Assembly: GCA_003558985.1 (NCBI GenBank)
Contig: PWNJ01000101.1
Coordinates: 1-37,577 of the forward strand
Reading direction: 5' to 3'
Source of the DNA: a candidate division CSSED10-310 bacterium
GTDB taxonomy: Bacteria > CSSED10-310
DNA length: 37,577 nt
The notes under the pieces were generated by a model. That model worked only from the letters and a program-made list of their open reading frames with translations. It had not been told where the DNA came from and ran no database searches. A program made the position numbers and the translations under genes. This document shows positions 1 to 21,978 of this stretch, piece by piece; the first letter of the stretch is position 1; every line of letters begins with the position of its first letter.

Positions 1-9
1 CCGAGGCCC

Positions 10-2649: not shown

Positions 2650-3926
2650 ATAATCGCTTAAAAAAAGTTTTTTCGTATGAACGCTTTATAGGTTTACGCT
2701 ATTTGCGGGCACGACGAAAGCAAACGATGATATCAATTGTGACATTAATCTCTATCGCCGGAGTAGCTCTGGGGGTAGCAGCCCTTATAATTGTGCTGGC
2801 TGTAATGACGGGTTTGGCCAATGATATGAGGGAAAAAATATTGGGCACGAATGCTCATATTGTAATATTACCTGCATCACCGGATGACAAAATCGAAGAT
2901 TATCATGAGATTACTGCTCTGGTGAGTTCTGTTCCTGGTGTCATTTCTTCAGAAGTATTTATTTATTCAAAAGGAATGATTCGTCGTGGTGTCAGGGGCG
3001 AAGGAGTCGTAATAAAAGGTATGGACATGGCTGATTCCGGACCTGTTGAATTACAGCATGCAATGGTGCATGGCAAGCTGGAGTATCTTGTTGAACTGCC
3101 GCAAACACAACAGCATAACACTGCTCCATTGCCCAGTGAAGGTGTTATTCTGGGGATTGAGCTTGCAAGACATCTGGGCGCTCGAATTGATGATGTCGTG
3201 ACAATTTTATCAGCAGAAATGACCCTGACACCCACGGGTATGATACCTCGGGCCAGATCATTTCGCGTGGTCGGCCTGTTTGAAACCGGAATGTATGAAT
3301 ATGACCGGTCAATGGCCTACATGACACTTGAAACAGCTTCAAGACTGCTTGGAATGCCGGATGGAGTTAATGGAATAGAAGTTCGTGTTGAAGATATCTT
3401 TCGGTCTGAAAGAATTGTGGAAGCGCTCCGGGATAAACTTGGTTTAAGATTCTGGATACGTGACTGGAAAGAGATGAACAGGACGTTTTTTGCAGCATTG
3501 AAGCTGGAAAAAATAGCAATGTTTATTATTCTGACTCTGATTGTGCTTGTTGCCTCATTCAGTATTATAAGTTCACTTACGATGATGGTAATGGAAAAAA
3601 ACAAGGATATTGGAATACTGAAAGCCATGGGAGCGACCAATGAAGGTATACGGAAAATATTTCTGGTGCAGGGTATGGTAATTGGACTCTTCGGAACCGG
3701 CATCGGAGGCACATTGGGATGTCTGATAAGCTGGATAGCCGATAAATACAAACTGATTCGATTGGAAGGCGAAGTGTACTATGTCAGTTATCTGCCTTTC
3801 GAAATCAAACTGACTGAAGTTCTGATAGTTTGTACTGCTTCATTGCTGATCTGTCTGCTGGCAACGATCTATCCGGCAAATCAGGCCGCGCGCCTGGACC
3901 CGGTTGAGGCAATTCGTTATGAATGA
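2646..3926 (+). CDS. lolC: Lipoprotein-releasing ABC transporter permease (LolC/LolE type)
   Basis: Inner-membrane permease that extracts mature lipoproteins for delivery to the outer membrane. The 426 residues show the family layout: a membrane helix at about 28-54, a large periplasmic MacB-like domain at about 55-285, then three helices at about 288-313, 337-363 and 390-412 forming an FtsX domain. The cytoplasmic loop EKNKDIGILKAMGA (317-330) is the usual coupling segment of this family. The tail LDPVEAIRYE is typical of LolC/E and FtsX-like permeases. The start overlaps the prfB stop as ATGA. Only one permease gene accompanies lolD here, so the transporter may be a homodimer, or a second permease gene lies elsewhere. 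It could equally be named lolE. Confidence 0.92.
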   Translation: MNNRLKKVFSYERFIGLRYLRARRKQTMISIVTLISIAGVALGVAALIIVLAVMTGLANDMREKILGTNAHIVILPASPDDKIEDYHEITALVSSVPGVISSEVFIYSKGMIRRGVRGEGVVIKGMDMADSGPVELQHAMVHGKLEYLVELPQTQQHNTAPLPSEGVILGIELARHLGARIDDVVTILSAEMTLTPTGMIPRARSFRVVGLFETGMYEYDRSMAYMTLETASRLLGMPDGVNGIEVRVEDIFRSERIVEALRDKLGLRFWIRDWKEMNRTFFAALKLEKIAMFIILTLIVLVASFSIISSLTMMVMEKNKDIGILKAMGATNEGIRKIFLVQGMVIGLFGTGIGGTLGCLISWIADKYKLIRLEGEVYYVSYLPFEIKLTEVLIVCTASLLICLLATIYPANQAARLDPVEAIRYE

Positions 3927-4620
3927 TATTTTGATGCGCGTTCAGAATATTCAAAAAGTATATAAAACTCCCCACGGTGATGTTCGTGTTCTGGAAGACG
4001 TCTCGTTTCAGTTGGAGAAAGGAGAAATTGTTGCAATTACTGGTGCCAGCGGAGTAGGAAAATCAACTTTGCTGCACATTATGGGAGGTTTGGACAGACC
4101 AACGAATGGTGAAATTGTATTTGAGGACAAAGTTTTGTCTGATATGACTAACACTCAACTGGCTGAATTTCGAAACACAAAAGTGGGTTTTGTATTTCAG
4201 TTTCACCATTTGCTACCGGAGTTTTCAGCAATTGAAAATGTAGCTATGCCGTTGTTAATACGCAGAACGTTATCGAAGAAAATGGCATTGCAACGCGCTG
4301 CTGAAGTTTTAAGTGATGTTGGTCTGTCACAGCGGTTTAACCATATTCCAGCTCAGTTATCTGGTGGTGAGCAACAGCGGGTGGCATTGGCCAGAGCTAT
4401 GGTCACGTCACCGTTGTTAGTACTGGCAGATGAACCAACCGGGAACCTGGACACGGGTACCGGGCGTATAGTGTTTGACATGATGTGCGAATTAAACGAA
4501 AAATACAAGGTTACATTTGTGATAGCATCACATGATATGGATTTGGCACGGTCTTCGCATAAATGTATGAAGATGGCTGCGGGTTACGTCGCACCGGATG
4601 CGTCGCATTTGAATAGCTGA
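3919..4620 (+). CDS. lolD: Lipoprotein-releasing ABC transporter ATPase
   Basis: ATPase that powers LolC/E-mediated release of lipoproteins. From ATG 3919 the protein has 233 residues, the same length as E. coli LolD. It carries Walker A GASGVGKST (42-50), a Q-loop glutamine at 94, the signature LSGGEQQR (147-154), Walker B LLVLADEP (166-173) and the H-loop histidine at 205. I chose ATG 3919 because GAGG at 3906-3909 precedes it by nine bases; an upstream TTG at 3904 would cover that site. The gene overlaps the permease gene by eight bases, so the two are almost certainly co-translated. Other MacB-type ATPases share these motifs, but the pairing with a LolC-type permease and with lnt supports LolD. 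Confidence 0.95.
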   Translation: MNDILMRVQNIQKVYKTPHGDVRVLEDVSFQLEKGEIVAITGASGVGKSTLLHIMGGLDRPTNGEIVFEDKVLSDMTNTQLAEFRNTKVGFVFQFHHLLPEFSAIENVAMPLLIRRTLSKKMALQRAAEVLSDVGLSQRFNHIPAQLSGGEQQRVALARAMVTSPLLVLADEPTGNLDTGTGRIVFDMMCELNEKYKVTFVIASHDMDLARSSHKCMKMAAGYVAPDASHLNS

Positions 4621-4671
4621 TTTGGTAAGATAACTGGGGGACGCATTCCAGAACCGTTAAGGAGATTGTCC

Positions 4672-7134
4672 ATGTTTGAAAAGTTTACAGAAAGAGCTCG
4701 ATTGGTGATTGTTCTGTCAAAAAGTGAGGCGGAACGGCTCAAACATGATCGTCTGGATACAGAACACTTGTTACTGGGCTTGATCAAGGAAGGTGGCGGT
4801 ATTGCCATAAGGGCTCTGCAAAAAATGAATGTTAATCCAAACTCACTACAGTTACAACTTGAACGACGCCTGATAATGGGGAATAGACTGGCATATCAAC
4901 GCGAATTGCCGTTTTCGGACCTGGCAAAAAGAGTCCTCGAAGCTGCTTTGATTGAAAGCCGTGAATTTGGCCATAGTTACATTGATACGGAGCATTTATT
5001 GCTCGGTATGGTTAGAGAACGTCATGGGATGGCTGGAAAAATGCTGAGGGATGTCGGGATTACTCTGGACACGTTGCGGGAAGTTATTCTTGAAATGTTG
5101 AATCCGGTTAAGGGTTCAGATCGGGGCAAGGAAAAATCAGCAACCCCAGCCCTGGATGCGTTTGGCCGGGATTTGACAAATATGGCACAGAATAAAAAAC
5201 TTGATCCGGTTATCGGTCGTTCCAATGAAATAGCGCGGGTTATTCAGATATTGTGTCGAAGACAAAAAAACAACCCGGTGCTTGTTGGTGATCCGGGGGT
5301 CGGAAAAACGGCTATTGTTGAAGGTTTGGCCCAAAAAATTGTTACGGGTGATATTCCGGAATTGCTGGCAAATAGAAGAATAATTAGTCTGGATCTGGCA
5401 GCGCTGGTCGCTGGTACAAAATATCGTGGGCAGTTTGAAGAAAGATTGCAGACAGTGCTTAAAGAACTCAGAGAAGCTGCAAATGTTATTGTGTTTATCG
5501 ATGAGTTACACACACTTGTCGGCGCTGGTGCGGCTGAAGGTTCAATAGATGCATCCAATATGCTGAAGCCATCACTGTCGCGCGGAGAAATCCAATGTAT
5601 CGGTGCGACGACGCAGGATGAGTATCGTAAACATATTGAGAAAGACGGCGCACTCGAACGCCGTTTTCAAACAATACGGGTGCTGGCTCCTACGGTATCT
5701 GAAACTGTCCGAATTCTTCAGGGTCTTAAACTTCAATACGAACAACATCATAATGCTGCATATTCAGACGATTCAATAGTTGCTGCAGTCCAGATGGCCG
5801 ACCGTTATATTTCCGACCGGCAATTGCCGGACAAGGCGATTGATGTCATTGATGAGGCTGGTGCACGAAAACGACTCGAAGCAACACGTGAACCGCTACA
5901 TCTGAAGGAAATGGAGCAGAAGGCTGACGACATAGATATTCAGGTTAAACATACATTGAAAGATTCCAAAGCAGATTTGTCAAGAATCAGGGATCTGAAA
6001 GAAGAACAACAGTCCTTGCGCAGAAAGGCTGAACAACTTAGAAAAGAATGGCGTTCTGAAATGCTGGAGCAAACTGTCGCTATTACTGCTGATGATATAT
6101 CGCAGGTTGTCAGCCAGTGGACGGGAGTTCCTCTGAGACGTATTCAGGAAAGTGAATCCCGAAAACTGTTGCAAATGGAGTCCGATATTCATCAAAGAAT
6201 TGTTGCCCAGGATGAAGCGGTCGATGCAGTTGTCAGAGCAATACGCCGTTCCAGATCAGGATTGAAAGACCATTCCAAACCAATTGGCTCATTTATCTTT
6301 CTTGGACCAACCGGAGTGGGCAAAACAGAACTTGCAAGAGCGTTGGCAGAAAACCTTTTTGGTGATGAAAAAGCCATGATTGCTATTGATATGTCTGAGT
6401 TTATGGAAAAACATTCTGTTTCAAGACTGGTCGGGTCACCTCCAGGATACGTCGGATACGGCGAAGGTGGGCAATTGACCGAAAAAGTACGCCGCAGTCC
6501 ATATTCGGTGGTTCTGCTGGATGAAATTGAAAAAGCAAGTTCAGATATATTTAACATTCTGCTCCAGGTTATGGAAGAAGGTCACCTGACAGATGGCATG
6601 GGAAGACAGGTTGATTTTAGAAACTGTATCTTGATTATGACTTCAAATATAGGCGCTAAATATATTCGAACAGGAACAATGATGGGATTTAGTCCGGATA
6701 CTGAAGCGGATCGTAGATCATACGAAAAAATGAAAAATACTGTTCTGCAGGAAATGAAAACAACGTTCAGCCCGGAGTTTCTCAATAGAGTTGATGAAGT
6801 AGTTGTTTTTCACCAGTTGAGTATAAAACACATCCGCGAAATTATGGATATGAATCTTGCCAGATTGAACAAACAGTTGCAGGAAATTGGCCTGGATATG
6901 GAAATTTCAGCAGCAGCAAGGGATTGGTTAGTCGAAAAAAGCTATCAACCAGCCTATGGCGCAAGACCGGTCAAACGCACTATTCGAAAATATATCGAAA
7001 ATCCCCTGTCTGAAGAATTGCTGAAACATCAGGACGATATGAAGGATGCCAGTGTCAGAATTTCACTTACAAAAAATCAATTGAAATTCAGTATTGAAAT
7101 TGGCAATCAATGTGTTGTTGTCACAGAAGGATAA
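4672..7134 (+). CDS. clpC: ATP-dependent Clp protease ATP-binding subunit ClpC
   Basis: Hexameric AAA+ unfoldase that feeds proteins to ClpP. From ATG 4672, seven bases after AAGGAG, it has 820 residues. The N-domain with two Clp repeats spans about 1-145. AAA1 has Walker A GDPGVGKT (206-213) and Walker B VIVFIDELH (272-280). A short coiled middle segment lies at about 400-470, much shorter than in ClpB and typical of ClpC. AAA2 has Walker A GPTGVGKT (545-552) and Walker B VVLLDEIE (613-620). MGF at 671-673 sits where the ClpP-binding loop ([LIVM]-G-[FL]) is expected. It lies 51 bases after lolD in the same direction. A Clp unfoldase between lipoprotein export and bamA genes is not a functional link I can prove; no adaptor (mcsA/mcsB) or clpP is present here. 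Confidence 0.96.
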   Translation: MFEKFTERARLVIVLSKSEAERLKHDRLDTEHLLLGLIKEGGGIAIRALQKMNVNPNSLQLQLERRLIMGNRLAYQRELPFSDLAKRVLEAALIESREFGHSYIDTEHLLLGMVRERHGMAGKMLRDVGITLDTLREVILEMLNPVKGSDRGKEKSATPALDAFGRDLTNMAQNKKLDPVIGRSNEIARVIQILCRRQKNNPVLVGDPGVGKTAIVEGLAQKIVTGDIPELLANRRIISLDLAALVAGTKYRGQFEERLQTVLKELREAANVIVFIDELHTLVGAGAAEGSIDASNMLKPSLSRGEIQCIGATTQDEYRKHIEKDGALERRFQTIRVLAPTVSETVRILQGLKLQYEQHHNAAYSDDSIVAAVQMADRYISDRQLPDKAIDVIDEAGARKRLEATREPLHLKEMEQKADDIDIQVKHTLKDSKADLSRIRDLKEEQQSLRRKAEQLRKEWRSEMLEQTVAITADDISQVVSQWTGVPLRRIQESESRKLLQMESDIHQRIVAQDEAVDAVVRAIRRSRSGLKDHSKPIGSFIFLGPTGVGKTELARALAENLFGDEKAMIAIDMSEFMEKHSVSRLVGSPPGYVGYGEGGQLTEKVRRSPYSVVLLDEIEKASSDIFNILLQVMEEGHLTDGMGRQVDFRNCILIMTSNIGAKYIRTGTMMGFSPDTEADRRSYEKMKNTVLQEMKTTFSPEFLNRVDEVVVFHQLSIKHIREIMDMNLARLNKQLQEIGLDMEISAAARDWLVEKSYQPAYGARPVKRTIRKYIENPLSEELLKHQDDMKDASVRISLTKNQLKFSIEIGNQCVVVTEG

Positions 7135-7145
7135 TGCATCTTATA

Positions 7146-7174
7146 TTGACCTGACTCACATAACCGTTTAATAT
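7146..7174 (+). promoter_or_regulatory. Candidate promoter before bamA
   Basis: TTGACC (7146-7151) resembles the -35 consensus at five of six positions. It is followed by 17 bases and TAATAT (7169-7174), a four-of-six match to the -10 element. An overlapping TATAAC at 7172-7177 is a better -10 but gives a 20-base spacer. The site falls in the 89-base gap between clpC and bamA. It is a pattern match only. Confidence 0.33.
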
Positions 7175-7223
7175 AACGCGCGGATTATGCCTGCAGCAAC
7201 AGGCAAGTTGGGATTGATTTAAT

Positions 7224-9602
7224 TTGATTACTCAAAATTACTTTAAAAAACTGATTCTATTTTTGCTTATAACAGTCTTTTATTGTGCTGAATCTGCAAA
7301 GATTTCTGCGGAGCTTCCGCCTGTCATAACTGATATACAGATCAGAGGCAATCAGCACATTGATATTGATACAATCCGGTATCTTATCAAGGTGACCCCC
7401 GGTGCAATACTAAATATGAACTTTATCCGGCGAGATGTAAAAAATATGTATGCATCAGGTCTTTTCGATGACATTCAAGTTAAAGTCGAAGAATTGGATC
7501 CGGGGTACAGACTGATTTATATCATCACCGAAAGACCCAGATTGGGGGAGATTGTCATTTCGGGGGCCCGCGCTATTGGCTTGAATACTTTAAGAGATGA
7601 GCTGACAATTTCGTCAGGGGATCGCTACAATCCATCCGAAGTTCAGGCAAGCATAAACAATATTGAAAACAAATATCGTGACAGAGGATATCATTTCGTG
7701 ACTGTTTCACCTCGACTGACTTCGCCCCAGGCCGCAGTATCATCGTTGGTCCTTGATATTGATGAAGGAACCCGTTTAAGAATCAGGGATGTCAATATCA
7801 AAGGTAATGAAAACATACGCACCGGAAACAGAATGTGGGGGTTGAAAGCACAACTGAAAAACAATCAGGAATGGTGGTGGTTGTCTTTTATTACTGAAGC
7901 CGGCCGGTTTCGTGAAGACAAACTCGATGAAGATATCCGGGCATTGGAAAAGTATTACAAAAATCGAGGTTTTCTTAGAGTTTCGGTCAGTGAACCGGAA
8001 ATAACCATGAATCCACCTTCCAGACCAGGACGACCCGCCTCGTTAAGCTTGACCTTTGAAATAGACGAAGGGCCTGTATATACGATTGGAGAAGTTGACT
8101 ACACGGTTACCGATGAGTCAATTATTCCAGTTGATGTGGTAAGGCGAGTCGTTGAATCAATACGGCCGGAAACCTATCGACGTTACATTGGTGGATCAGC
8201 ATTGTTTCGAGGAGGTTCACGTTTTCAGACTGGATATCGCTATTCTCTTGCGCTGGAAGATCAGGCCATAAAAACTTTAAGTGAGATTTATGGTATGCAG
8301 GGGTATGTTTATGCGCACATAGTACCCGAAAGAACGATTGATGACGAGACGCGCACGGTTGATATAACCTTTTCAGTGATAGAAGGAAAAAAAGCGTATC
8401 TGAACCGGCTGGATTTTAGAGGAAATTTTCGAACAAAGGACAGAGTTTTAAGACGAAATTTTGCTATTGCAGAAGGTGATGTATTCAACACATCACTGCT
8501 GCAATCATCTATTGCCCGACTGCAGTATCTTGCTTATATTGATGACGTCATGCCGGATATCGAGCCGCAAATAGACCCCTCATTAATCAATGTTGAGATA
8601 TCGCTGGCAGATAATCGGCAGACGGAGATTCAACTGGCGGGAGGTTATTCAGGATATAACAGATTGTATGGCACATTGGGATTATCTGAACATAACCTTT
8701 TTGGAAGGGGACAGGAACTTAATATTCAGGCAACATCCGGCAGCAGAAGTGAAACAATCCGTTTTTCATTCACTGATGAATGGGTAATGGATCGGCCGTA
8801 TTATGGATCATTTGCGCTATGGAACACACGTGAAAAATACGATCACTCAACACAGCGTAAAATCGGGTCCAGTGTTTTTACGGGTAGATCATTTCGAAGA
8901 GGTTTCTCCTCGCGTATCGGATACACTTATGAAAGAAATAAAGTCTATGATGTATCAGCATCAGCCGATGAAGTTGTAAGAGATCTTGAGGGTACGCAGG
9001 TTACATCGAGTTTGACGCATGTATGGATTCTGAATACTCTTGACAGCAGATTGGATCCTTCAAAAGGTTTTTATGGCTCAGCAAATATTCAGTATGCCGG
9101 CGGAGTTTTGGGAGGCGATAACGATTTCTATAAATCAGCGCTATCAATGTCGAATTATTGGTCACTGCCGCGAAGACTGGTTTTTATGTTGCAAGGAAGA
9201 ATTAATTACGCGGATGGTTTAAGAGGGCAGGAATTACCCTTTTATGAGTTATACAGACTTGGGGGGCCCAATACCGTTAGAGGATATCGAGATTTCAGTA
9301 TTGGCCCTATCGGTGAACGCGGAAATACTCTTGGAGGTAACAAGGCTGTTTTTTTATCCTCAGAAATTCAAATTCCAATTGCCCAACCACTCAAATTGAT
9401 TCTGTTTGCCGATGCCGGAAATGTATGGGCTTCAGGTGAGGATATTGACCTTAGAACTCTCAGACCCAGCGCAGGTTTTGAAGTTAGATTTTTTATGCCT
9501 GGATTTGGGATTCCTTTGCGTTTTATTTGGGGATACAATCTGGATCCGTATGAAAATGAAAGCCGTAATGATTTTCAATTCACCATGGGACGAACGTTCT
9601 GA
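7224..9602 (+). CDS. bamA: Outer-membrane protein assembly factor BamA
   Basis: Core Omp85 protein that folds and inserts beta-barrel proteins into the outer membrane. The 792 residues begin with a signal peptide (hydrophobic core about 9-21, likely cleavage near residues 25-29). Five POTRA domains follow at about 33-104, 105-182, 185-283, 286-388 and 391-464, then a 16-strand-type barrel from about 467 to the terminal phenylalanine. The conserved lid-lock motif VRGYRD is at 685-690. POTRA3 and POTRA4 carry small insertions, including WWWLS near 217-221. The start is TTG 7224: an in-frame TGA lies at 7215-7217, and the signal peptide is lost with any later start. The ribosome binding site is weak. 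skp, lpxD and lpxA follow, the standard neighbourhood of bamA. Confidence 0.97.
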   Translation: MITQNYFKKLILFLLITVFYCAESAKISAELPPVITDIQIRGNQHIDIDTIRYLIKVTPGAILNMNFIRRDVKNMYASGLFDDIQVKVEELDPGYRLIYIITERPRLGEIVISGARAIGLNTLRDELTISSGDRYNPSEVQASINNIENKYRDRGYHFVTVSPRLTSPQAAVSSLVLDIDEGTRLRIRDVNIKGNENIRTGNRMWGLKAQLKNNQEWWWLSFITEAGRFREDKLDEDIRALEKYYKNRGFLRVSVSEPEITMNPPSRPGRPASLSLTFEIDEGPVYTIGEVDYTVTDESIIPVDVVRRVVESIRPETYRRYIGGSALFRGGSRFQTGYRYSLALEDQAIKTLSEIYGMQGYVYAHIVPERTIDDETRTVDITFSVIEGKKAYLNRLDFRGNFRTKDRVLRRNFAIAEGDVFNTSLLQSSIARLQYLAYIDDVMPDIEPQIDPSLINVEISLADNRQTEIQLAGGYSGYNRLYGTLGLSEHNLFGRGQELNIQATSGSRSETIRFSFTDEWVMDRPYYGSFALWNTREKYDHSTQRKIGSSVFTGRSFRRGFSSRIGYTYERNKVYDVSASADEVVRDLEGTQVTSSLTHVWILNTLDSRLDPSKGFYGSANIQYAGGVLGGDNDFYKSALSMSNYWSLPRRLVFMLQGRINYADGLRGQELPFYELYRLGGPNTVRGYRDFSIGPIGERGNTLGGNKAVFLSSEIQIPIAQPLKLILFADAGNVWASGEDIDLRTLRPSAGFEVRFFMPGFGIPLRFIWGYNLDPYENESRNDFQFTMGRTF

Positions 9603-9626
9603 TGGTGTAAAAGGGAGAAACAAAAC

Positions 9627-10151
9627 ATGAAAAAAGGAATAATTGTAGTTGCATGCCTGTTATTCACACTGGCTTGTACATTAGTTGAAGCGGATGAAAA
9701 CATGAAAATAGGTTTTATACGCACACAACGAGTCATACTTGAGACACAGGTCGGTAGAGAGGGATATGAAAACCTGCAAAGACTTGTTGAGCAGCATCGT
9801 CAGAAAATACAGCAAAAAGAAAACGAGATCAGAGCAATGGAAGAAGAGCTGGTTAAACAGGGTCAAATGCTTACCGATGAAGCACGTCTTGAAAAACGTG
9901 AGCAATTACAGCGAGCTATTGTTAATCTCAACCGTATGAATGAAGATGCTCAAAACGAAATTGGCGGTCGCGAAAAACTGCTTCTTGATCGTATTATTGA
10001 TCAGCTTGCAAAAGTCATTGAAAAGATAGGTCAGGAACATGGCTATACAATGATTCTTGACTCAGACGGACCTTCAGTACTCTATTCTGACAGGACAAAA
10101 GATATATCAGCCAAGATAATCGAAGAATTTGATAAAATGCAGCAAAATTGA
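9627..10151 (+). CDS. skp: Skp/OmpH family periplasmic chaperone
   Basis: Periplasmic holdase that carries unfolded outer-membrane proteins to BamA. The 174 residues start at ATG 9627, behind GGGAG at 9612-9616. A signal peptide is evident (core residues 5-18, probable cleavage after VEA near residue 22). The mature protein opens with KIGFIRTQRVILET, the family's first beta strand and helix. It continues as a long charged helical pair at about 45-125 and closes with a beta strand (YTMILDSDGPSVLYSD), as in Skp trimers. LAC near residue 17 weakly resembles a lipobox, but the surrounding residues do not fit well, so I favour a soluble protein. It follows bamA by 24 bases and precedes lpxD by 38, the usual order. 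Confidence 0.92.
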   Translation: MKKGIIVVACLLFTLACTLVEADENMKIGFIRTQRVILETQVGREGYENLQRLVEQHRQKIQQKENEIRAMEEELVKQGQMLTDEARLEKREQLQRAIVNLNRMNEDAQNEIGGREKLLLDRIIDQLAKVIEKIGQEHGYTMILDSDGPSVLYSDRTKDISAKIIEEFDKMQQN

Positions 10152-10189
10152 TAACTCAAATGATCATCGAACAATTGCTCGCTTAACCT

Positions 10190-11299
10190 ATGAATCATTC
10201 AAAACCAGGGAAAACGGTGGTTTTATCGGATATTGCCAGGATTATTGACGGGCAACTGGTTGGCAATGATGCCAACAGCCCGATTACTGGAATAGTCTCG
10301 CTGGACAGAGCCCAACCCGAACATATTTCGTTCTATAACAGTCCCAAATACAAGTCCCAAATACAGACAACTCAGGCAAAAGCTGTTTTGGTCAATGAAA
10401 TTCCGGATTTCAATGTAAAATGCAGTTTAATCGTTGTTAAAGATGTCCAATTGGCCCTTGCAAAGTTATTACCGCTGTTTTTCGATAATATTCAGGCAAA
10501 ACCGGGTATTCATTCATCATCAACAATTCATCATACAGCAAAAGTTCCTGACTCCAGCTCCATTGGTCCAAATGTCGTTATTGAAGAAAAAGCGCATGTA
10601 GGGAACAACGTAGTATTGTTTCCCGGTGTGTATATTGGCAGAAATGCATCTGTCGGAGATGACTCAATAGTTTACCCCAATGGGTACATCGGTCATGATG
10701 TTTCAATAGGTAAACGGGCTGTTATTCATGCAGGAACAGTTATTGGATCAGATGGTTTTGGATTTGCCCGGGAGAGGGATAAATATGTCAAAATTATGCA
10801 ATTGGGAACCGTAGTTATAGGAGATGATGTAGAAATTGGCGCTAATTGTACCATAGACAGGGGCAGTATGGGAACTACCACCATCGGAAATGGTGTCAAA
10901 ATGGATAATCTTGTTCATGTTGCACATAATGTATCAATTGGTGAAAATACTGTTATTGCGGCACAAACAGGTATCGCCGGTAGTTCACACATAGGGAAAA
11001 GAACAGTATTTGGAGGACAGTCAGGTGTCAACGCTCACGTTTCCGTGGGTGACGATGTTATTCTTACCGCACGTGGATCAATCATGAAAAATGTCTCTGC
11101 ACAGCAAATAATTTCCGGATTTCCTCAAATGCCACACCATAAATGGAAACGAAATCAGGTTGCCTTGCGTCACGCTTCAGAATGGGCTTCCAAAATAAAA
11201 TCAATCTCTGACAGACTGAATAAACTGGAAACAAAACTCAATTCTGTTTACGATTGTGAAAAGGAGAATGCCGATGATAGCAAAAACAGCGATCATTGA
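10190..11299 (+). CDS. lpxD: UDP-3-O-acylglucosamine N-acyltransferase
   Basis: Third committed enzyme of lipid A synthesis: it transfers a hydroxyacyl chain from acyl carrier protein to the 2-amino group of UDP-3-O-acylglucosamine. The 369 residues show an N-terminal uridine-binding domain at about 9-105 (FYNSPKYKSQIQ is the conserved FxxNPKY-type element) and a left-handed parallel beta-helix of hexapeptide repeats at about 107-315. A helical tail lies at about 325-369. H246 in HVAHNVSIG aligns with the catalytic His239 of E. coli LpxD. E. coli LpxD has 341 residues, so this one has a longer, polar C-terminus. No good ribosome binding site precedes ATG 10190. The 3' end overlaps lpxA by 26 bases. 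fabZ, often found between lpxD and lpxA, is absent. Confidence 0.95.
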   Translation: MNHSKPGKTVVLSDIARIIDGQLVGNDANSPITGIVSLDRAQPEHISFYNSPKYKSQIQTTQAKAVLVNEIPDFNVKCSLIVVKDVQLALAKLLPLFFDNIQAKPGIHSSSTIHHTAKVPDSSSIGPNVVIEEKAHVGNNVVLFPGVYIGRNASVGDDSIVYPNGYIGHDVSIGKRAVIHAGTVIGSDGFGFARERDKYVKIMQLGTVVIGDDVEIGANCTIDRGSMGTTTIGNGVKMDNLVHVAHNVSIGENTVIAAQTGIAGSSHIGKRTVFGGQSGVNAHVSVGDDVILTARGSIMKNVSAQQIISGFPQMPHHKWKRNQVALRHASEWASKIKSISDRLNKLETKLNSVYDCEKENADDSKNSDH

Positions 11300-12044
11300 T
11301 CCGAATGCCAAAATCGAAGAGGGCGTAAAAATTGGCCATTATTCAATTGTTGGCCCAGGAGTTGAAATTGGTCAGGGATGCGAAATCGGCAATCATGTAA
11401 CTCTGGAAGGACCGATGAAAATCGGTAAAAACAATCGTATCTTTCACCATAGCTATGTTGGCGGAACACCTCAAGACCTTTCCTATAACAACGAAAAGAC
11501 ATGGGTCACAATCGGCGATAACAATATTATTCGGGAATACGTTACCATCCACAGGGCGACTGACAAACAGGACAAAGTAACATATGTCGGGAACAGCAAT
11601 TTTATTATGGCATATGTTCACATTGCGCATGATTGCTCAATAGGAGACAACTGCATTCTGGCTAATGCTATTAATATGGCTGGACATGTTACGATCGAAG
11701 ATTACGCATCAATAGGTGGTATGGTTGCAATACATCAGTTTGTTCGAATTGGCCGATACAGTTTTGTTGGCGGTTTTACTGCAGTGACGCAGGATGTGTT
11801 ACCGTTCAGTATGATTGCCGGTGAAAGAGCTGTTTTACGAGGTATTAACAAAGTCGGGCTCCAAAGATGGGGATTTGATGGTAATGCAAGAAACAAGCTT
11901 CAGAAAGTTATGCGGTATCTTATGACAGGTGAGTTTAGCACACCAACCGCAATTGATAATCTGATCAAGGAATATCCAGATGACCCGGAAGTCAAGGCGA
12001 TAATTGATTTCATTGGCATGTCAAAAAGAGGTATCACACGTTAG
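11274..12044 (+). CDS. lpxA: Acyl-ACP--UDP-N-acetylglucosamine O-acyltransferase
   Basis: First enzyme of lipid A synthesis: it transfers a hydroxyacyl group from acyl carrier protein to the 3-hydroxyl of UDP-GlcNAc. The 256 residues (E. coli 262) form a hexapeptide-repeat beta-helix at about 1-185 and a helical C-terminal domain. H119 in VHIAHDC corresponds to catalytic His125, with H116 matching His122. The motif GGMVAIHQF and the QDV segment are typical of LpxA. ATG 11274 is preferred over ATG 11268 and GTG 11256 because AAGGAG at 11261-11266 sits seven bases before it. The gene overlaps lpxD and closes the envelope run; lpxB and lpxC are not in the window. Confidence 0.96.
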   Translation: MIAKTAIIDPNAKIEEGVKIGHYSIVGPGVEIGQGCEIGNHVTLEGPMKIGKNNRIFHHSYVGGTPQDLSYNNEKTWVTIGDNNIIREYVTIHRATDKQDKVTYVGNSNFIMAYVHIAHDCSIGDNCILANAINMAGHVTIEDYASIGGMVAIHQFVRIGRYSFVGGFTAVTQDVLPFSMIAGERAVLRGINKVGLQRWGFDGNARNKLQKVMRYLMTGEFSTPTAIDNLIKEYPDDPEVKAIIDFIGMSKRGITR

Positions 12045-12080: not shown

Positions 12081-12980
12081 TTATAATGCACGACCCAGAA
12101 AATAGACAAGAGGGTCAGCAAATGTTCCTTTAATATTGAAAGGAATATACATATCTTCATCAAATGGCTGCTCACTACTAATAAAATGTAGTCGAACCTG
12201 AATATCCATCAATGAGTCATCTATTGGAAGCTGCTGATAAATTTTACCCATTACCCGAACAATTGTATCTGGACTGAATAAGCGAATATCTTCAAGAATT
12301 ATTTCGGAGTATTTTAACTCAATATAAGCAGTCGCAGTGTCAAATTCAGGCAAATCAAAATCTCCGGAAAAAAAATCCGGTGTTCTGAACCGGGTGTCCT
12401 CAAATGTTAAACTTATCCTGCCATTATAACCAAATCGCCTGCTCACGTCTGCTGTCAGATTCAGATGTCCCGAAACTAATCCACTGTCTAATTGAAGGTC
12501 ACTGTAATCTTTTGACACAAGCTCCATATCAAGATCATTCCATGAAACCGTAATCAAAAATGGCGCAGGTGTGGTTTGAATCAAGGTCTCTAATAAACCT
12601 TCAAAACCTCCGCCGTAAGCATTTCCATGAAAACGGATTGCTGCCTTTCTTTGTAACAGCGGCAAAAACGCAATTCGGAATGTGAATGATTCACCGGTGA
12701 ACCAGATGTTTTCGGTAACACTTTGATCAGGCAGCTTGAGAGGCTGAGTTGTTGTCTGACCAAGCGTCACCTGCTTTAAATTAAGGCTGCCCGGAAATTG
12801 AAATTTAACGGTTTCATATTTCAAAACAATACCTGATTGATCATAAAGCTCCTGGGATATGATCTGCATAAGATACATTTCAGGCTGAAATATACGGATA
12901 AAAAATACGATCAGAATGAAAGGTATCACAACCCAAATGACAAAATGTCGAAACATAAAACGAAATAACTTACGAAACAT
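12081..12980 (-). CDS. gspN: GspN/AsmA-like inner-membrane-anchored protein
   Basis: The 299 residues have one N-terminal membrane anchor (about 11-30) and a long beta-rich periplasmic part. The early motif FQFPGSLNLKQVTLG (about 61-75), the repeated short beta strands and the central variable stretch resemble the deltaproteobacterial-type GspN family. Those proteins share the AsmA-like fold of bridge-type lipid transport proteins and are often linked to type II secretion. No other gsp gene is visible here, so a secretion role cannot be claimed; an AsmA-like envelope role is the alternative. The start codon lies inside the 3' end of glgA (11-base overlap), so the two are probably co-translated. 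It converges with lpxA, leaving 36 bases between them and no obvious terminator hairpin. Confidence 0.62.
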   Translation of the reverse strand: MFRKLFRFMFRHFVIWVVIPFILIVFFIRIFQPEMYLMQIISQELYDQSGIVLKYETVKFQFPGSLNLKQVTLGQTTTQPLKLPDQSVTENIWFTGESFTFRIAFLPLLQRKAAIRFHGNAYGGGFEGLLETLIQTTPAPFLITVSWNDLDMELVSKDYSDLQLDSGLVSGHLNLTADVSRRFGYNGRISLTFEDTRFRTPDFFSGDFDLPEFDTATAYIELKYSEIILEDIRLFSPDTIVRVMGKIYQQLPIDDSLMDIQVRLHFISSEQPFDEDMYIPFNIKGTFADPLVYFLGRAL

Positions 12981-14505: not shown

Positions 14506-14535
14506 TTGTCAAGATACTACCTGTTTCATTACAAT
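14506..14535 (+). promoter_or_regulatory. Candidate promoter for the lipoprotein/peptidase-barrel operon
   Basis: TTGTCA (14506-14511, five of six -35 positions) is followed by 18 bases and TACAAT (14530-14535, five of six -10 positions). It lies in the divergent gap between glgA and the TPR lipoprotein gene, just before AGGAGG at 14541-14546. The closeness to the ribosome binding site would give a very short leader. It is a pattern match only. Confidence 0.38.
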
Positions 14536-14556: not shown

Positions 14557-14940
14557 ATGAATATAAAAATCAGCTTTAGAATCAAAATAATGTGCATCCT
14601 TCTATTTCTGTCCATTGCAGCTTTGATGAACGGTTGTACTCATATTCGACCCCGAACTCATGACGATTTAATTCGTTATGGCGTTCAACTGGCCGAAGCG
14701 GGATTTTGGCAAGAGGCAGCGGCTCAATGGCAACTGGTGCTTCGGGAAGACCCGGAAAATATAGCGGCGCTGAATAATTTGGGTGTTGCCATGGAAGAAT
14801 CTGAGAAATTTGAAGAGGCAAAACAGTTTCTGGAAAAAGCCGACTCACTTAGACCTTCGGATAGGCGAATTCAAAGAAATCGAAATGCACTGGCAAATCG
14901 ACTGAGATCCCAAAGCTATCAGGAGAGAACCAATGACTAA
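14557..14940 (+). CDS. Small TPR lipoprotein
   Basis: A 127-residue protein with a signal peptide ending in LMNGC, a lipobox-like sequence with the cysteine at residue 27, so it is probably a lipoprotein. The mature part holds about two tetratricopeptide repeats at roughly 38-108 (NLGVAMEESEKFEEAKQFLEKA is a clear TPR). TPRs bind protein partners, so a scaffold or assembly-factor role at the envelope is likely, but no partner can be named. AGGAGG lies ten bases before ATG 14557. It heads a three-gene unit: its stop overlaps the next lipoprotein gene by eight bases, and the peptidase-barrel gene follows. Confidence 0.8.
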   Translation: MNIKISFRIKIMCILLFLSIAALMNGCTHIRPRTHDDLIRYGVQLAEAGFWQEAAAQWQLVLREDPENIAALNNLGVAMEESEKFEEAKQFLEKADSLRPSDRRIQRNRNALANRLRSQSYQERTND

Positions 14941-15631
14941 CGTAAATAATCAAATAAAAATCGCCAGTCTTTTTGTTATTTGTATGATTGTGTTAGTTGC
15001 TGTCAGCGGATGCAGGTCCCACAAAAGAATACCTGTTACTTACAGAGATTATTCAGTATTGGAAACGTTGGATTCGCAAGATATTATTATTGGAAGGTTC
15101 TATCAAAAAAGTCCAAACTTTCAGGCTGCTTCAGACTTGGTGCGTTTGTTAGAACGCCAGTTTTCACGAACAGATTTGTTTGAAAATGTGTTAACAGATA
15201 ACAATGTAATAGAAATACCTGATGAGCATGAAGGTATAGAATCGATAATGAAAGTGTTAGCTGAAACTGACTGGTTACAGGAATACCCTGACCGGGATGC
15301 TGACCTTTTGTTGACCGGGGCTATTGCATATTTAACCAAAGATCGTTCTGGATATGATTCAGAATGGCGTGAAGACAGATATGGATACAGGGTTCCGCAA
15401 AAGGTTTACAGAAATCGTATCGCATTTGATTTGCAGCTCGGGTTTTTATTGGTTGATTTACGAACGGGGGAAGTTATTTTCAATAATATTTATGATGACA
15501 GTGACCAGGTCGAGGGTGCGGCTGATGAAATCAGCATTTTTTTTGATCTGATTGATGAACAGACAGAAGAGTTTTTGGATGAATTACTTGGCAAGAAACA
15601 GCAGACCTATCGCTTTTTGGTTTATAAATAG
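14933..15631 (+). CDS. Predicted lipoprotein of unknown function
   Basis: A 232-residue protein with a signal peptide closing in AVSGC (cysteine at residue 27), a good lipobox. I do not recognise the family with certainty. The mature part has an alpha/beta pattern: a helix near residues 61-75 (DLVRLLERQFSRTDLF), a strand-turn motif LLLTGAIAYL near 121-130, and LGFLLVDLRTGEVIFN near 165-180. This order recalls the CsgG/LpoB-type fold of outer-membrane lipoproteins, in which a variable 'LTG' strand is followed by a 'D.xTGEV' hairpin. That comparison is by eye and weak. The protein sits between the TPR lipoprotein and the peptidase-barrel protein, overlapping the former by eight bases, so a shared envelope task is likely. 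Confidence 0.8.
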   Translation: MTNVNNQIKIASLFVICMIVLVAVSGCRSHKRIPVTYRDYSVLETLDSQDIIIGRFYQKSPNFQAASDLVRLLERQFSRTDLFENVLTDNNVIEIPDEHEGIESIMKVLAETDWLQEYPDRDADLLLTGAIAYLTKDRSGYDSEWREDRYGYRVPQKVYRNRIAFDLQLGFLLVDLRTGEVIFNNIYDDSDQVEGAADEISIFFDLIDEQTEEFLDELLGKKQQTYRFLVYK

Positions 15632-15649: not shown

Positions 15650-18517
15650 ATGAAGACTTTTATGATACGGCTGTTAGCTGTGGCGGGATTGTGTATGACT
15701 GTTGTGTTGGCGTTGACTGCTCCGGCGGAAGGTTTTGGTAAAAATAAGGTTACCTACACCAGATTTGACTGGAAAGTTCATACAACAGCCAACTTTGAGT
15801 TCTATTACTACATGGAAGAACCGGATTTGATGCCTGAAATAATCAACTACTTCGAAACGGCATATACCAGAATATCCAGTGATCTGGGTACAGACCTGAC
15901 GGGAAGAATACCGGTAATTCTGTATACAACGCATTCGGATTTTCGGCAAACTAACGTATTGGCCGGATTTATTCCAACGGGTGTGGGGGGATTTTCCGAA
16001 CTGCTTAAGCGAAGGATTGTAATTCCGTTGCAAAGTCCCAGGAGCGATCTTGAATCATTGATTAATCACGAGCTTGTCCATTCATTTCAATTTGAGATTT
16101 TTTTTCAAAACAGACTTAGCAGAATAGCCCCGGTGCCAATGTGGGTAATGGAAGGAATGGCTGAGCATTTTTCGGCTGACTGGGATGCCTATGGGCGTAT
16201 GGTTGTAAGAGATGCTGTTATCAATGGATATCTTCCAGGACTGGAAAGACTGAATACGTTTGATTTTTTACCTAATCCGTATATTGGATATAAGATCTCG
16301 CAATCAGCAGTCGATTTTATACGCGAGGAATATGGTATTGATAAATTCCGTGAGTTTTTGTGGGAAATCCGCAAAACATTGCGTTCTCGTGAATATATTC
16401 AAGTAGCCATGCAAGATATTTATGGGGTTTCATTACAGGAAATGTCCGCATTATGGCATGATGATTTGCGCCGTCGAGTTATTGAGATTGAACGTCGCAG
16501 GGAGAGTATCAGCGTATTTGATTCATCAATTCCGTTAACCCATGCTGGGTACCGACGTTTATCGCCAGTATATGGCATTGGAAACGAGGTTATTCATTTT
16601 CTGGAAGCCGGCAGGGATGGGTTGCATATTAAAACCGGAGCAGTCAGGAAACCGGACAGAGACAAGCTGGATATTTGTCTGACATGCCGTCTGAATGGCA
16701 GAAGATTCCGTCAGATTGTAACTCAGGGAAGACCATTGGCCAGATCATTACAGGATGGAATGCTGGCGTATATCAATCATTTCGAAAACACTCATTCAAT
16801 CAAATTACTCGACCCCGCTTCGGGCAGATTGGTCGATTCATTTCGGTTGTCTGAAGATTCACCGACATCGCCGGCATTCAGTTCAGATGGCCGCTATATC
16901 GCTTATGCCGCTTGGTCCGGGTTGCAATCAGATATCTATGTGCTCGACCGTGAAACGGGAAACAGTCGGAACGTGACTGATGATCAATATGTGAACCGAA
17001 CACCATATTGGTCACCTGATAGCAAGCATATTGTCTATTCATCGGAAAGAGATGGTCAGTTTGATTTGGTTCTTCTGGAAATCGAATCCGGTACTAAACG
17101 ATTGTTATCTGAACCGGGAGATCAAATCACACCGGCCTGGTCTCCGGATGGAAAAAAAATAGTCTACATTTCCGATACAATTGATGGTGTTCAGGACCCA
17201 TATATCCTGGATGTTGAAACGTTACAGTCACGAAGACTTGCTGCTCCGGTTACGGGTTGTCTGCTCCCATCATTCTCAATCGACAGTCAAAAAGTTGTTA
17301 TGCTGTATTACCTGCGCGGTACAGAACGCATCGTTGTCATATCGGCTGACCGTACTCCGATTATTCCGGAAGTTGCTCAAGATGCTGAACCTCTGGGTAT
17401 AACTGGTGAAGCTCGCTTCACAGAATTATCCGAGGCTTTCCCCAGAGTTACAGTTCCGGAATCGGTAGCTGATTTGGATGCTGACCCGGTCCGATTCAGA
17501 TTAATACCCGATTATGCTGTGGGTATGCTCAGCTATGGAACCAGTGGCGACTTTTTCGTTGAAGGAGGAGTGGTTTTATCTGATATTCTGGGTGATCACA
17601 GAGTTGAGATTATCGGTCGCAGACGGGATAACAGAAGCGGGTTGCTTGCACAGTATCAATACTTGCGAAACAGGGTTAACTATGGCGCCATGTTTATGCA
17701 GGACAGCAATTATTACTACATTTTCAATCCGCAACGGAATATATATCAGCGGGTGGGATGGGATGAGTATTGGGGTGTCTTTGCTGTCCATTATCCATTT
17801 TCCACTTATTACAGAGCTGAGCTTAATTTTGGTTATCAACATCTTGAATATGATTCACCACTATCGGGCTTTACCGATTTAAACAGACGATATGCCTATA
17901 TTGAACCAGGCTTTGTAGGTGACACAATTCAGTATAGGTTCATGGCCGGCTATCCGGAAATATACAGGGGGTGGCGTTTTCGGTTAAGTACAAGAATACC
18001 GGTGGATGCAGGTGACAAGTTTGACAATTATCTAAACACACATTTTGATTTTCGTGAGTATATTCCGTTGACAGAACGATCCGTCATTGCGGCCAGACAA
18101 TGGGGTGTTTTTTCTGAGGGCAGCCAACCTCAATATTTTGGCGTTGGCGGGCCGGGTACAGTACGAGGTTTTGGGTACAGGCAGTTGGTTGGAAACCGTA
18201 TTGTTATGACGAGTACGGAGTTGAGGTTTCCGCTGCTTGACCACTTAATTTTCCCCGGAGGCATTTCATTTCACGGGTTTCGCGGAAAATTCTTTGTCGA
18301 TGTTGCCGCTGTCTGGTCGGATCGTGACTCTTTTGAATGGGAGTTTAATGATCCCAAAACATCTGTCAGAGAAGGGTCACTGGTTGCGTCTTATGGCTGG
18401 GGAATCAATTTTTGGATGATTGGTGTTGAATGGCACTTTGAATGGGCCAGACGAACTGATTTTAAAAAGACCTCAGGGGATTGGCATTATGAATGGTCTA
18501 TTCGCAGGAGTTTTTAG
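15650..18517 (+). CDS. Metallopeptidase-propeller-outer membrane barrel fusion protein
   Basis: A 955-residue protein with a signal peptide (core about 6-22) and three recognisable parts. First, a gluzincin-like peptidase domain (about 35-285) with HELVH at 140-144 and the third-ligand segment WVMEGMAEHF at 165-174 (E168), as in peptidase MA-like families. Second, TolB/PD40-type propeller blades at about 300-560; three are clear, with cores PAFSSDGRYIAY, PYWSPDSKHIVY and PAWSPDGKKIVY. Third, a C-terminal Omp85-like surface-antigen barrel (about 600-955) with VRGFGYR at 838-844 and a terminal phenylalanine. There are no POTRA domains. In Omp85 proteins the N-terminal part faces the periplasm, so the peptidase and propeller are inferred to be periplasmic. 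It is the last gene of a unit with two lipoproteins. Substrate unknown. Its last 20 bases overlap the end of the convergent ligase gene. Confidence 0.88.
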   Translation: MKTFMIRLLAVAGLCMTVVLALTAPAEGFGKNKVTYTRFDWKVHTTANFEFYYYMEEPDLMPEIINYFETAYTRISSDLGTDLTGRIPVILYTTHSDFRQTNVLAGFIPTGVGGFSELLKRRIVIPLQSPRSDLESLINHELVHSFQFEIFFQNRLSRIAPVPMWVMEGMAEHFSADWDAYGRMVVRDAVINGYLPGLERLNTFDFLPNPYIGYKISQSAVDFIREEYGIDKFREFLWEIRKTLRSREYIQVAMQDIYGVSLQEMSALWHDDLRRRVIEIERRRESISVFDSSIPLTHAGYRRLSPVYGIGNEVIHFLEAGRDGLHIKTGAVRKPDRDKLDICLTCRLNGRRFRQIVTQGRPLARSLQDGMLAYINHFENTHSIKLLDPASGRLVDSFRLSEDSPTSPAFSSDGRYIAYAAWSGLQSDIYVLDRETGNSRNVTDDQYVNRTPYWSPDSKHIVYSSERDGQFDLVLLEIESGTKRLLSEPGDQITPAWSPDGKKIVYISDTIDGVQDPYILDVETLQSRRLAAPVTGCLLPSFSIDSQKVVMLYYLRGTERIVVISADRTPIIPEVAQDAEPLGITGEARFTELSEAFPRVTVPESVADLDADPVRFRLIPDYAVGMLSYGTSGDFFVEGGVVLSDILGDHRVEIIGRRRDNRSGLLAQYQYLRNRVNYGAMFMQDSNYYYIFNPQRNIYQRVGWDEYWGVFAVHYPFSTYYRAELNFGYQHLEYDSPLSGFTDLNRRYAYIEPGFVGDTIQYRFMAGYPEIYRGWRFRLSTRIPVDAGDKFDNYLNTHFDFREYIPLTERSVIAARQWGVFSEGSQPQYFGVGGPGTVRGFGYRQLVGNRIVMTSTELRFPLLDHLIFPGGISFHGFRGKFFVDVAAVWSDRDSFEWEFNDPKTSVREGSLVASYGWGINFWMIGVEWHFEWARRTDFKKTSGDWHYEWSIRRSF

Positions 18518-19928: not shown

Positions 19929-21050
19929 CTAAAAAAACCTGGTGCAATCCATTAAATAAGGATGCAAACGTTTCAAGTCCGACAAAGATGTAATTTCCAA
20001 TGGCAGCAAAGGAATTCGGTAACTGTCTATTTCCCGGGGTAATTGCTTCATGAATTTATTCATTAAGCGTGTCTCATATTCAAGTCGGCGATGGTGGTTA
20101 TCTATGAAACTTCGTAATTCTTTGCGTTGCTTTTCCGATGGCCGGATTTCGATATTAGGGTTAATGCCTGATTGATGATTAACGGGAAACAGGGGTGGGG
20201 TTACACGATTAAATATAACTGCTTTCAATGGCAATTCTGATTTAACAAGCATGGATGCAATCATGGATGTTTCACGAAGACTTGAATCATTGGGTAGTGA
20301 TACAAGAAAAATGGAGGTCTTGTCAGGATTATGCAGTATTTGCTGCAGATGATGCACTCTATCACAAAAGTCATCATATAACTCAGCCAATGAAATCAGT
20401 AATTGAACTGCATCATCCAGCCATTTTTTTCCAGCTACGCCTGATAAAAGTGTTTCCGTAACCGAAAATGATCTGGCGCCTGACTTTTTATGTCGAAAAG
20501 CGAATCGTTTTATGGGTTTTTTTATCATTTGAATATGATTTGGATTTATAAGATTCAACAATTGCCGAGGGGCATCGAAAAAATCCAGAGCGCTTTGAGC
20601 GGGCGCCGTATCGACAAAAAGTGTGTCCATAGAAACAGATGTTAAAAGTTGATACACCTTTCCCCAGGCCAGGTATTCTTCAGTATTGCTCATTTGAGTG
20701 ACAGCTATTTGAAAAACCGGATTCGAAATAATACTGTCGGCAAGCTCGGAAGATGGAGAGTAAAGGTGTGTCAACTCTTCTGCAGCAGTTTTCAGATTCA
20801 GCATGGCTGCTCTGAATCGGCCTTCAGAATGTTTGGTCTTAACAGGTAAATCTATTTCCGATAATTGATCATCCAGTTCTTGCAATCCTAAAGTGTTGGC
20901 CAAACGTCTGGCCGGGTCAACAGTAAAGGCTATTGAATCCATTCCATTACATGCAGCCAGCAACGCCATGGATGCCGATATACTTGTCTTTCCAACACCT
21001 CCGGCTCCGCAAAAAAGCATCATGGAAGCATTTGCTGGGTTTTTAACCAT
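19929..21050 (-). CDS. ArsA/Get3-family ATPase (second of a pair)
   Basis: A 373-residue deviant-Walker P-loop ATPase. The signature CGAGGVGKTSISA is at about residues 14-26, the switch I element VDPARRL near 46-52, and the switch II signature DTAP in FVDTAPAQSALDFF near 146-159. FNRV in the C-terminal half fits the ArsA/Get3 adenine-binding region. ArsA homologues either energise arsenite export or, as Get3, handle membrane proteins; no arsB, arsR or metal-binding cysteine triad is visible, so the arsenical role is unlikely. ATG 21050 gives an eight-base overlap (ATGGTTAA) with the upstream partner. A TTG at 21116 would only add an out-of-frame reading of that gene. It is co-oriented with the MurC-like ligase downstream. 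Confidence 0.85.
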   Translation of the reverse strand: MVKNPANASMMLFCGAGGVGKTSISASMALLAACNGMDSIAFTVDPARRLANTLGLQELDDQLSEIDLPVKTKHSEGRFRAAMLNLKTAAEELTHLYSPSSELADSIISNPVFQIAVTQMSNTEEYLAWGKVYQLLTSVSMDTLFVDTAPAQSALDFFDAPRQLLNLINPNHIQMIKKPIKRFAFRHKKSGARSFSVTETLLSGVAGKKWLDDAVQLLISLAELYDDFCDRVHHLQQILHNPDKTSIFLVSLPNDSSLRETSMIASMLVKSELPLKAVIFNRVTPPLFPVNHQSGINPNIEIRPSEKQRKELRSFIDNHHRRLEYETRLMNKFMKQLPREIDSYRIPLLPLEITSLSDLKRLHPYLMDCTRFF

Positions 21051-21978
21051 GGTAACCGCTTTCCGAAATATGTCTACATAAAGTTTTGGAGACTTTTCCG
21101 GATGAAAACGAATCAACAGACGGCATTATCAACAAAGGTTCCTGCCACCACTTTTTCAGAGTTGCAATACAGGTGTTTGCCAGCAATTTTCGTTGCCTTT
21201 CAAGGTTTACGATATACTTTAAAGACTCTGCGGATACGTCGGACTGTATACAGTGGGTCAGAAGATATTCCAGATGAGTACTACTGGTTTGAGTAATCCA
21301 GTTTATTGTATCTTCGGATAATATGTCCGCTTCATGACGATTGACAATGATTGTGTCAACAACCATGGAACAACGGTTTTGCAATTCAAGGATCATTTCT
21401 CTGGATTCCTGTACGGGTGTTTCTTCCGGAACTGTAACAACGATCAGACGGGTAAAAGCAGGATCAGACAGGTAGTCACAGTTGCGCCTGATTCGTTTTA
21501 AAAGTGGGGCGTGAGCTATCACATGTGACGCTTTCAAAGTTGAAGCAAAAAGATTTGTTGTAAACCCTGTTGAAGGCATATCGACGATAATAGTGTTCCA
21601 GGATTTGTGTTTGTGTGATAACGCATACGAGAAAATTTTGTCAATTAGTAAAACCTCACGAAACCCCGGCAAAATTTCAGACAAGGATGGATATAACGGA
21701 TGATTAATGATCCATTTCCTGAACGGTTTTAAAGCCAGCATGCCAGTGATGTATTCAGTCAAAATTGTATGACGGTCCAGAACCGTGGCATATAAACCAG
21801 GTTTGACTTCAATCGGGTTTGATGTCAGTTCAACGGCTTCCAGATGATTTCGAAAACTTTCAGACCAGTCCAGAGATATTGCAAGCGCTCCGCCGCGCTT
21901 GGAAAAGAAATGGCTGAAACCACCGGTAATGGCTGTTTTTCCAGTTCCACCTTTTCCACATATAAACAGGACTCGCAT
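21043..21978 (-). CDS. ArsA/Get3-like ATPase (first of a pair)
   Basis: A 311-residue P-loop ATPase with the deviant Walker A CGKGGTGKT at residues 7-15, starting at ATG 21978 behind TTGGAG. It lacks the strict switch I DPAxS (it reads DWSES) and the DTAP switch II (it reads VDMPSTGFT), so it is the more diverged half of the pair. The hydrolytic logic resembles the two unequal halves (A1/A2) of ArsA, here as separate genes. No membrane segment is seen. The pair probably forms a heterodimer, an inference from overlap and adjacency. Pairs like this occur in several diderm bacteria without a settled function. Confidence 0.82.
   Translation of the reverse strand: MRVLFICGKGGTGKTAITGGFSHFFSKRGGALAISLDWSESFRNHLEAVELTSNPIEVKPGLYATVLDRHTILTEYITGMLALKPFRKWIINHPLYPSLSEILPGFREVLLIDKIFSYALSHKHKSWNTIIVDMPSTGFTTNLFASTLKASHVIAHAPLLKRIRRNCDYLSDPAFTRLIVVTVPEETPVQESREMILELQNRCSMVVDTIIVNRHEADILSEDTINWITQTSSTHLEYLLTHCIQSDVSAESLKYIVNLERQRKLLANTCIATLKKWWQEPLLIMPSVDSFSSGKVSKTLCRHISESGYHG

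Follow-up and report, generated by a model that had tools for sequence, protein, structure and literature searches.

Here, we identify a conserved three-gene cassette encoding a small TPR protein, a lipoprotein with a CsgG-like fold (lip2) and a fusion of a gluzincin-type peptidase, a TolB-like propeller and an Omp85 barrel in a candidate division CSSED10-310 bacterium, a representative of a candidate group of phylum rank. By computation, we demonstrate the three-domain architecture of the fusion, the invariance of its catalytic residues, the fold of its lip2 partner and the linkage of the cassette. We suggest, in a reading that we consider evenly balanced, that the three genes encode one outer-membrane, periplasm-facing zinc protease complex acting on outer-membrane or exported proteins, either to mature or to dispose of them.

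Within the window, i.e., the whole stretch of 37,577 nucleotides analysed, the cassette and the sites preceding it are arranged as follows:

14506..14535, + strand: promoter-like site preceding the three-gene run, with 10/12 consensus matches; weak, the regional count of such sites being near chance
14512-14484, − strand: divergent promoter-like site for glgA; weak, the regional site count being near chance
14557..14940, + strand: gene 1, small TPR protein of 127 aa (Pfam TPR_2, 2.6e-8), with a signal peptide and a probable lipobox (LMNGC)
14933..15631, + strand: gene 2 (lip2), lipoprotein of 232 aa with a CsgG/FlgT-middle/PelC/GNA1162 fold (AlphaFold2, Foldseek) and lipobox VSGC
15650..18517, + strand: gene 3, peptidase-propeller-Omp85 fusion of 955 aa (Pfam, AlphaFold2, Foldseek)

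Neighbouring genes of the run overlap or abut, with the fusion gene starting 19 bases past the end of lip2, and Shine-Dalgarno-like sequences lie ahead of both the TPR gene and lip2. The lipobox of lip2 (VSGC) is canonical while that of the TPR gene (MNGC) is weaker. Upstream of the trio, positions 1-12044 hold lnt, prfB, lolC/E, lolD, a clpC-like gene, bamA, skp, lpxD and lpxA. The BamA encoded there, 6 kb upstream of the fusion, is complete with five POTRA domains, and the fusion was therefore rejected as the BamA of this organism. Beside glgA, a 299-aa protein (12081-12980, − strand) that is conserved in CSSED10-310 has an AsmA/TamB-like N-terminus by eye and had no match in the Pfam search. 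Downstream of the trio (19929-21978, − strand), two ArsA/Get3-like ATPases are encoded side by side; one matches the NCBIfam BagB model at 199 bits against a cut-off of 521, and the other matches no model.

Architecture and conservation of the fusion

The first-pass annotation had read positions 15650-18517 as a single protein made of an HExxH peptidase, a TolB-like propeller and an Omp85 barrel, lacking POTRA domains. Its coordinates and motifs proved exact, and the domains are arranged as follows:

15650..15733, + strand: Sec signal peptide, residues 1-28 (from sequence)
15734..16504, + strand: gluzincin-type peptidase domain, residues 29-285; H140, E141, H144 and E168 invariant in 103/103
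16505..17359, + strand: TolB-like beta-propeller, residues 286-570, ~22 strands, probably six blades (TIGR02800, Foldseek 1c5k)
17501..18514, + strand: Omp85 beta-barrel, residues 618-955, 16 strands (Pfam Omp85, DSSP on the model, Foldseek BamA)

The signature motifs fall at residues 140-144 (HELVH), 168 (glutamate of the EG motif), 838-841 (VRGF) and 955 (terminal F). Pfam matches the fusion to PD40 (5e-21) and Omp85 (5e-14). Peptidase_MA_2 (PF13485) scores 28.9 bits on the fusion of the window, under the gathering score of 32.4, and is matched at E<0.001 by 21 of 26 homologues. The curated NCBIfam models for TolB (TIGR02800; 102.5 bits against a cut-off of 343, over profile positions 160-356 only) and BamA (TIGR03303; 34.4 bits against 297) score far too low for membership. 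No Pfam POTRA model matched the fusion in a search that did find POTRA domains in the neighbouring BamA, in agreement with the first-pass annotation. The order of the three domains is kept in full-length relatives down to ~20-25% identity, and the architecture is thus not the product of chance.

Conservation is highest in the peptidase domain: across 103 aligned full-length proteins, it has 30 columns conserved at ≥90%, compared to 27 for the barrel, although the latter is longer, and 11 for the propeller. H140, E141, H144, W165, E168, G169 and Y214 are invariant, and the HExxH motif, the loss of which in close homologues would have spoken against the earlier interpretation, is thus retained in 103/103. 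The fusion carries the HExxH motif and downstream glutamate ligand that define clan MA(E) gluzincins by sequence. In a PDB search, the peptidase profile matched M9 collagenases (2.7e-5) as well as a cold-active aminopeptidase, with a weaker match to aminopeptidase N, which places the domain among the gluzincins. The invariance of the HExxH+E and EG motifs in all 103 homologues suggests an active enzyme under selection. In the barrel, the L6 position reads VRGF, in line with the Omp85 motif (V/I/L)RG(F/Y), and R839 and G840 are kept in 101/103 and 100/103 homologues, respectively. The mature N-terminus, FGKNK (residues 29-33; window 15734-15748), is near-invariant directly after the signal peptide (F29 in 88, G30 in 98, N32 in 99 and K33 in 98 of 103); such conservation of a mature N-terminus is unusual.

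These data also bear on the idea that the fusion is an extra assembly factor of the BamA/TamA type, in which the propeller replaces the POTRA domains or BamB and the peptidase serves mainly the maturation or regulation of the protein itself. The L6 RG motif and the BamA-like barrel are compatible with this idea, and a comparison to a BamA-BamB fusion has been made for WD40-Omp85 proteins (PMC4104836). However, the genome already encodes a complete BamA with five POTRA domains 6 kb away, and the peptidase is more conserved than any other part of the fusion. We therefore consider a role as an assembly factor quite improbable.

An AlphaFold2 model of the fusion built on 26 homologues (pLDDT 83.8, pTM 0.81) has a helical peptidase domain, ~22 propeller strands at residues 302-565 and exactly 16 long strands at residues 619-951. 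In Foldseek searches against the PDB, the propeller ranks with TolB (1c5k, rmsd 3.1 over 262 columns) and the barrel with BamA/TamA. Structure prediction, which had been proposed as a check for a closed barrel, thus yields a predicted 16-stranded, BamA-like barrel. In Omp85 proteins, a barrel with an even number of strands is known to start and end on the periplasmic side. With 16 strands, the enzyme and the propeller of the fusion should therefore face the periplasm. The earlier placement of both domains at the mouth of a pore resembling BamA agrees with this predicted topology, in which the N-terminus is periplasmic.

Alternatively, the peptidase domain could be displayed on the cell surface, carried there by the barrel of the same protein, similarly to type Vd autotransport. 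Surface display was the first reading of PlpD and has been suggested for the "Metallo" Omp85 subfamily (PMC4104836); however, the enzyme domain of PlpD stays in the periplasm (PMC11116518). Moreover, the barrel would have to pass a folded peptidase and propeller of >500 residues, and the conserved partners have lipoboxes or signal peptides and are expected to be periplasmic. Altogether, these considerations make surface display very unlikely.

The two partner genes and their linkage to the fusion

We searched for relatives of the fusion in genome contigs of 84,980 species using two short patterns, with five close rows as the working query, and found at least 453. The best 80 of these are mostly from Poribacteria and Acidobacteriota, the latter represented among others by the isolate Acanthopleuribacter pedis, with one from Ignavibacteria; farther stand-alone homologues of the fusion occur in additional genomes from other groups. 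lip2 was traced by an iterative profile run over all ORFs of the fetched loci. In these loci, the profile matches only beside the fusion, and lip2 lies directly upstream of it in 74/80 named loci, with the TPR gene upstream of lip2 in 69/80. Four loci without an adjacent lip2 (L076, L137, L140 and L141) are only apparent exceptions, as lip2 sits elsewhere in those genomes. In two loci, one ORF ahead of the fusion gene encodes both the TPR and the lip2 part (L084:8967-9986 and L098:8919-9953), which argues that the two parts work together. Upstream of a relative at 3216-6053 (L043, genome G006), a 250-aa gene and a 132-aa lipoprotein-like gene on the minus strand, beside ExbD- and TonB-like genes, may be part of a strongly diverged trio; the profile match is weak.

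Linkage holds at the level of whole genomes. Among near-complete genomes of Poribacteria, 53/53 have both the fusion and lip2, as a rule in single copy, and the two genes are adjacent on one strand in 53 of the 56 Poribacteria genomes that have both. In a sample of 60 Acidobacteriota, both genes occur together in 28 genomes and are jointly missing from 29; a further 3 have the fusion alone, and lip2 never occurs alone (Fisher 4e-14, kinship ignored). In this sample, the small 1.9 Mb genomes G126, G142 and G169 have the fusion with lip2 not detected and represent a natural test of lip2 dispensability. In a tree of 88 fusions, cassette-bearing members form one clade (SH-aLRT 99) and the cassette state changes four times. 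In a distant clade of homologues, the fusion is retained but the partner genes are not beside it; the partners are therefore not obligatory for every member.

The trio is constant while its flanking genes vary between phyla. The envelope-biogenesis neighbourhood is specific to CSSED10-310; trio neighbours are dprA, topA, mnmG and purL in Acidobacteriota and UPF0182 in Poribacteria. A larger conserved operon was rejected because the genes outside the trio change by phylum. The gene for the UPF0182 membrane protein follows the trio on the same strand at L066:12921-16334 and in 11 other Poribacteria loci. Altogether, these findings strongly support the two upstream genes as partners of the fusion.

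lip2 of the window alone had no match in the Pfam search, and its family lacks a dedicated Pfam entry. Among 47 relatives, Pfam FlgT_M was matched in 21 and LpoB, CsgG or FlgO in a few. Its AlphaFold2 model (pLDDT 93.5) retrieved the FlgT ring, HpaA, GNA1162, PelC, CsgG and LptE in Foldseek with E values of about 1e-5 (2e-6 to 1e-5 for FlgT, GNA1162, PelC and CsgG) and modest TM-scores of ~0.3-0.57. An assignment to BamD (17 bits) was rejected because the fold is that of CsgG/FlgT. A lipobox is present in lip2 of CSSED10-310, Poribacteria, part of Acidobacteriota and one further clade, while most Thermoanaerobaculia have a plain signal peptide; lipidation of lip2 is thus, as judged from these N-termini, not constant across phyla. 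Hence, the earlier suggestion that two upstream lipoproteins serve the fusion as accessory subunits, to be looked for beside its homologues, holds with regard to conserved adjacency but not with regard to lipidation as a general trait or to the distant clade lacking the partners.

The fusion could be a secretion pore with a processing protease. In this case, specific polypeptides would be recruited by the propeller together with the TPR and CsgG-fold partners, exported through the barrel in the manner of FhaC, and trimmed by the peptidase while passing or afterwards. True protein translocators exist among Omp85/TpsB barrels (PMC4104836), and lip2 is similar in fold to PelC, which assembles into a ring on a barrel that exports its cargo (PMC12141448). 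By contrast, a conserved gene for a substrate is not found next to the trio in the different phyla, and the fusion is a near-universal, single-copy protein in Poribacteria, unlike dedicated exporters of one substrate. We therefore regard a secretion pore as unlikely. Handling of a polymer or lipid at the outer membrane, by analogy to PelB-PelC (TPR, barrel and CsgG-fold ring) or LptD-LptE, would account for a parts list of TPR, CsgG-fold lipoprotein and barrel (PMC12141448) and for LptE among the Foldseek matches of lip2. However, it would leave the Omp85 barrel, the TolB propeller and the invariant peptidase site, which have no role in the PelBC and LptDE systems, without a purpose, and outside CSSED10-310 the trio is not accompanied by clusters of polysaccharide or lipid genes. 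We give this analogy very little credence.

A proposed role at the outer membrane

We return to the zinc protease complex, of which the periplasmic side, the physical association, the proteolytic activity and the substrates are what we infer. The fusion would be exported by Sec and its 16-stranded Omp85 barrel would reside in the outer membrane. The propeller, in place of the POTRA domains of BamA, would offer a docking surface for substrate or partners, and the peptidase would cut polypeptides held at the barrel, either at its periplasmic mouth or at its lateral seam. As periplasmic subunits, the CsgG-fold and TPR proteins would bind to the fusion, with a lipid anchor in some phyla. The substrates of the complex would be exported or outer-membrane proteins, which it would mature or dispose of, similarly to BepA at BAM except that protease, propeller and barrel would act within one chain. 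By analogy, BepA at BAM is the nearest function for the trio, while PlpD is the nearest structural precedent for a periplasmic enzyme domain as proposed for the fusion. The first-pass interpretation is thus partly supported; the BAM-side quality-control role that it assigned to the fusion is still one that we infer.

How cells check and clear outer-membrane proteins without ATP is still an open question. E. coli distributes the parts over separate proteins, with BepA as the protease, BamB as the propeller and BamA as the barrel. In the fusion, equivalents of these parts are joined in one chain, and both partner genes accompany it in several phyla; a single purified complex and a single catalytic mutation would therefore suffice to test the question. 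The fusion also widens the range of what Omp85 proteins carry instead of POTRA domains. Tentatively, and with somewhat less than even confidence, we suggest that the trio is an undescribed, deeply conserved machine, core to Poribacteria and many Acidobacteriota, in which an Omp85 barrel with a propeller for POTRA domains and a built-in zinc protease is served by dedicated TPR and CsgG-fold proteins.

Comparison with known systems

Heinz and Lithgow (2014) named a WD40-Omp85 subfamily, which they compared with a fusion of BamA and BamB (PMC4104836). Compared by description, these proteins and the fusion have in common an N-terminal TolB-like propeller immediately preceding an Omp85 barrel and the lack of POTRA domains. 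The text of that paper mentions a peptidase domain 0 times and reports neither partner genes nor a tested function (PMC4104836); the peptidase domain and the partner genes are features reported here. We found no account of the three-gene cassette in the open-access literature. Thus, the earlier description of the system as little described applies to the cassette but not to propeller-Omp85 fusions as such: the type is partly known by domain name, and the conserved protease site and the cassette appear undescribed.

Two other Omp85 groups carry an enzyme domain. The patatin-Omp85 protein PlpD, like the fusion, has its enzyme domain, later shown to be periplasmic (PMC11116518), N-terminal to the barrel; however, PlpD is a lipase with POTRA and no propeller, while the fusion is a peptidase with a propeller and no POTRA. 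The "Metallo" subfamily, called metalloprotease-Omp85, carries PF00149 (PMC4104836), a fold different from the HExxH gluzincin. The Pfam search found no PF00149 match in the fusion, and membership in this subfamily was rejected because of the different domain. Canonical BamA, TamA and FhaC share the Omp85 barrel and the L6 motif with the fusion but differ from it in having POTRA domains.

BepA at BAM degrades outer-membrane proteins stalled at a late stage (PMC13067283). BepA, which is periplasmic, and the trio have in common an HExxH peptidase tied to outer-membrane proteins and a TPR element. However, BepA is an M48 peptidase with its TPR in the same chain and with neither propeller nor barrel, while the fusion has no M48 match in the Pfam search and the TPR is encoded by a separate gene. 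TolB shares the propeller fold, but the fusion lacks the N-terminal domain of TolB and stays far below the TIGR02800 cut-off. Relatives G002 and G005 encode a separate true TolB, and the propeller was therefore rejected as a TolB replacement. PelBC and LptDE resemble the trio in that an outer-membrane barrel is served by a CsgG-fold lipoprotein, and PelB also has TPRs; by contrast, their barrels are not Omp85 barrels, no protease is present, and the cargo is a polymer or lipid. Finally, a partial homologue on a plasmid of Salinibacter ruber is labelled "basic secretory protein-like protein" in the database. This label captures the shared HExxH peptidase segment but ignores the propeller and the barrel, and our analysis offers a likely function for a family that, where annotated, is labelled only in this way.
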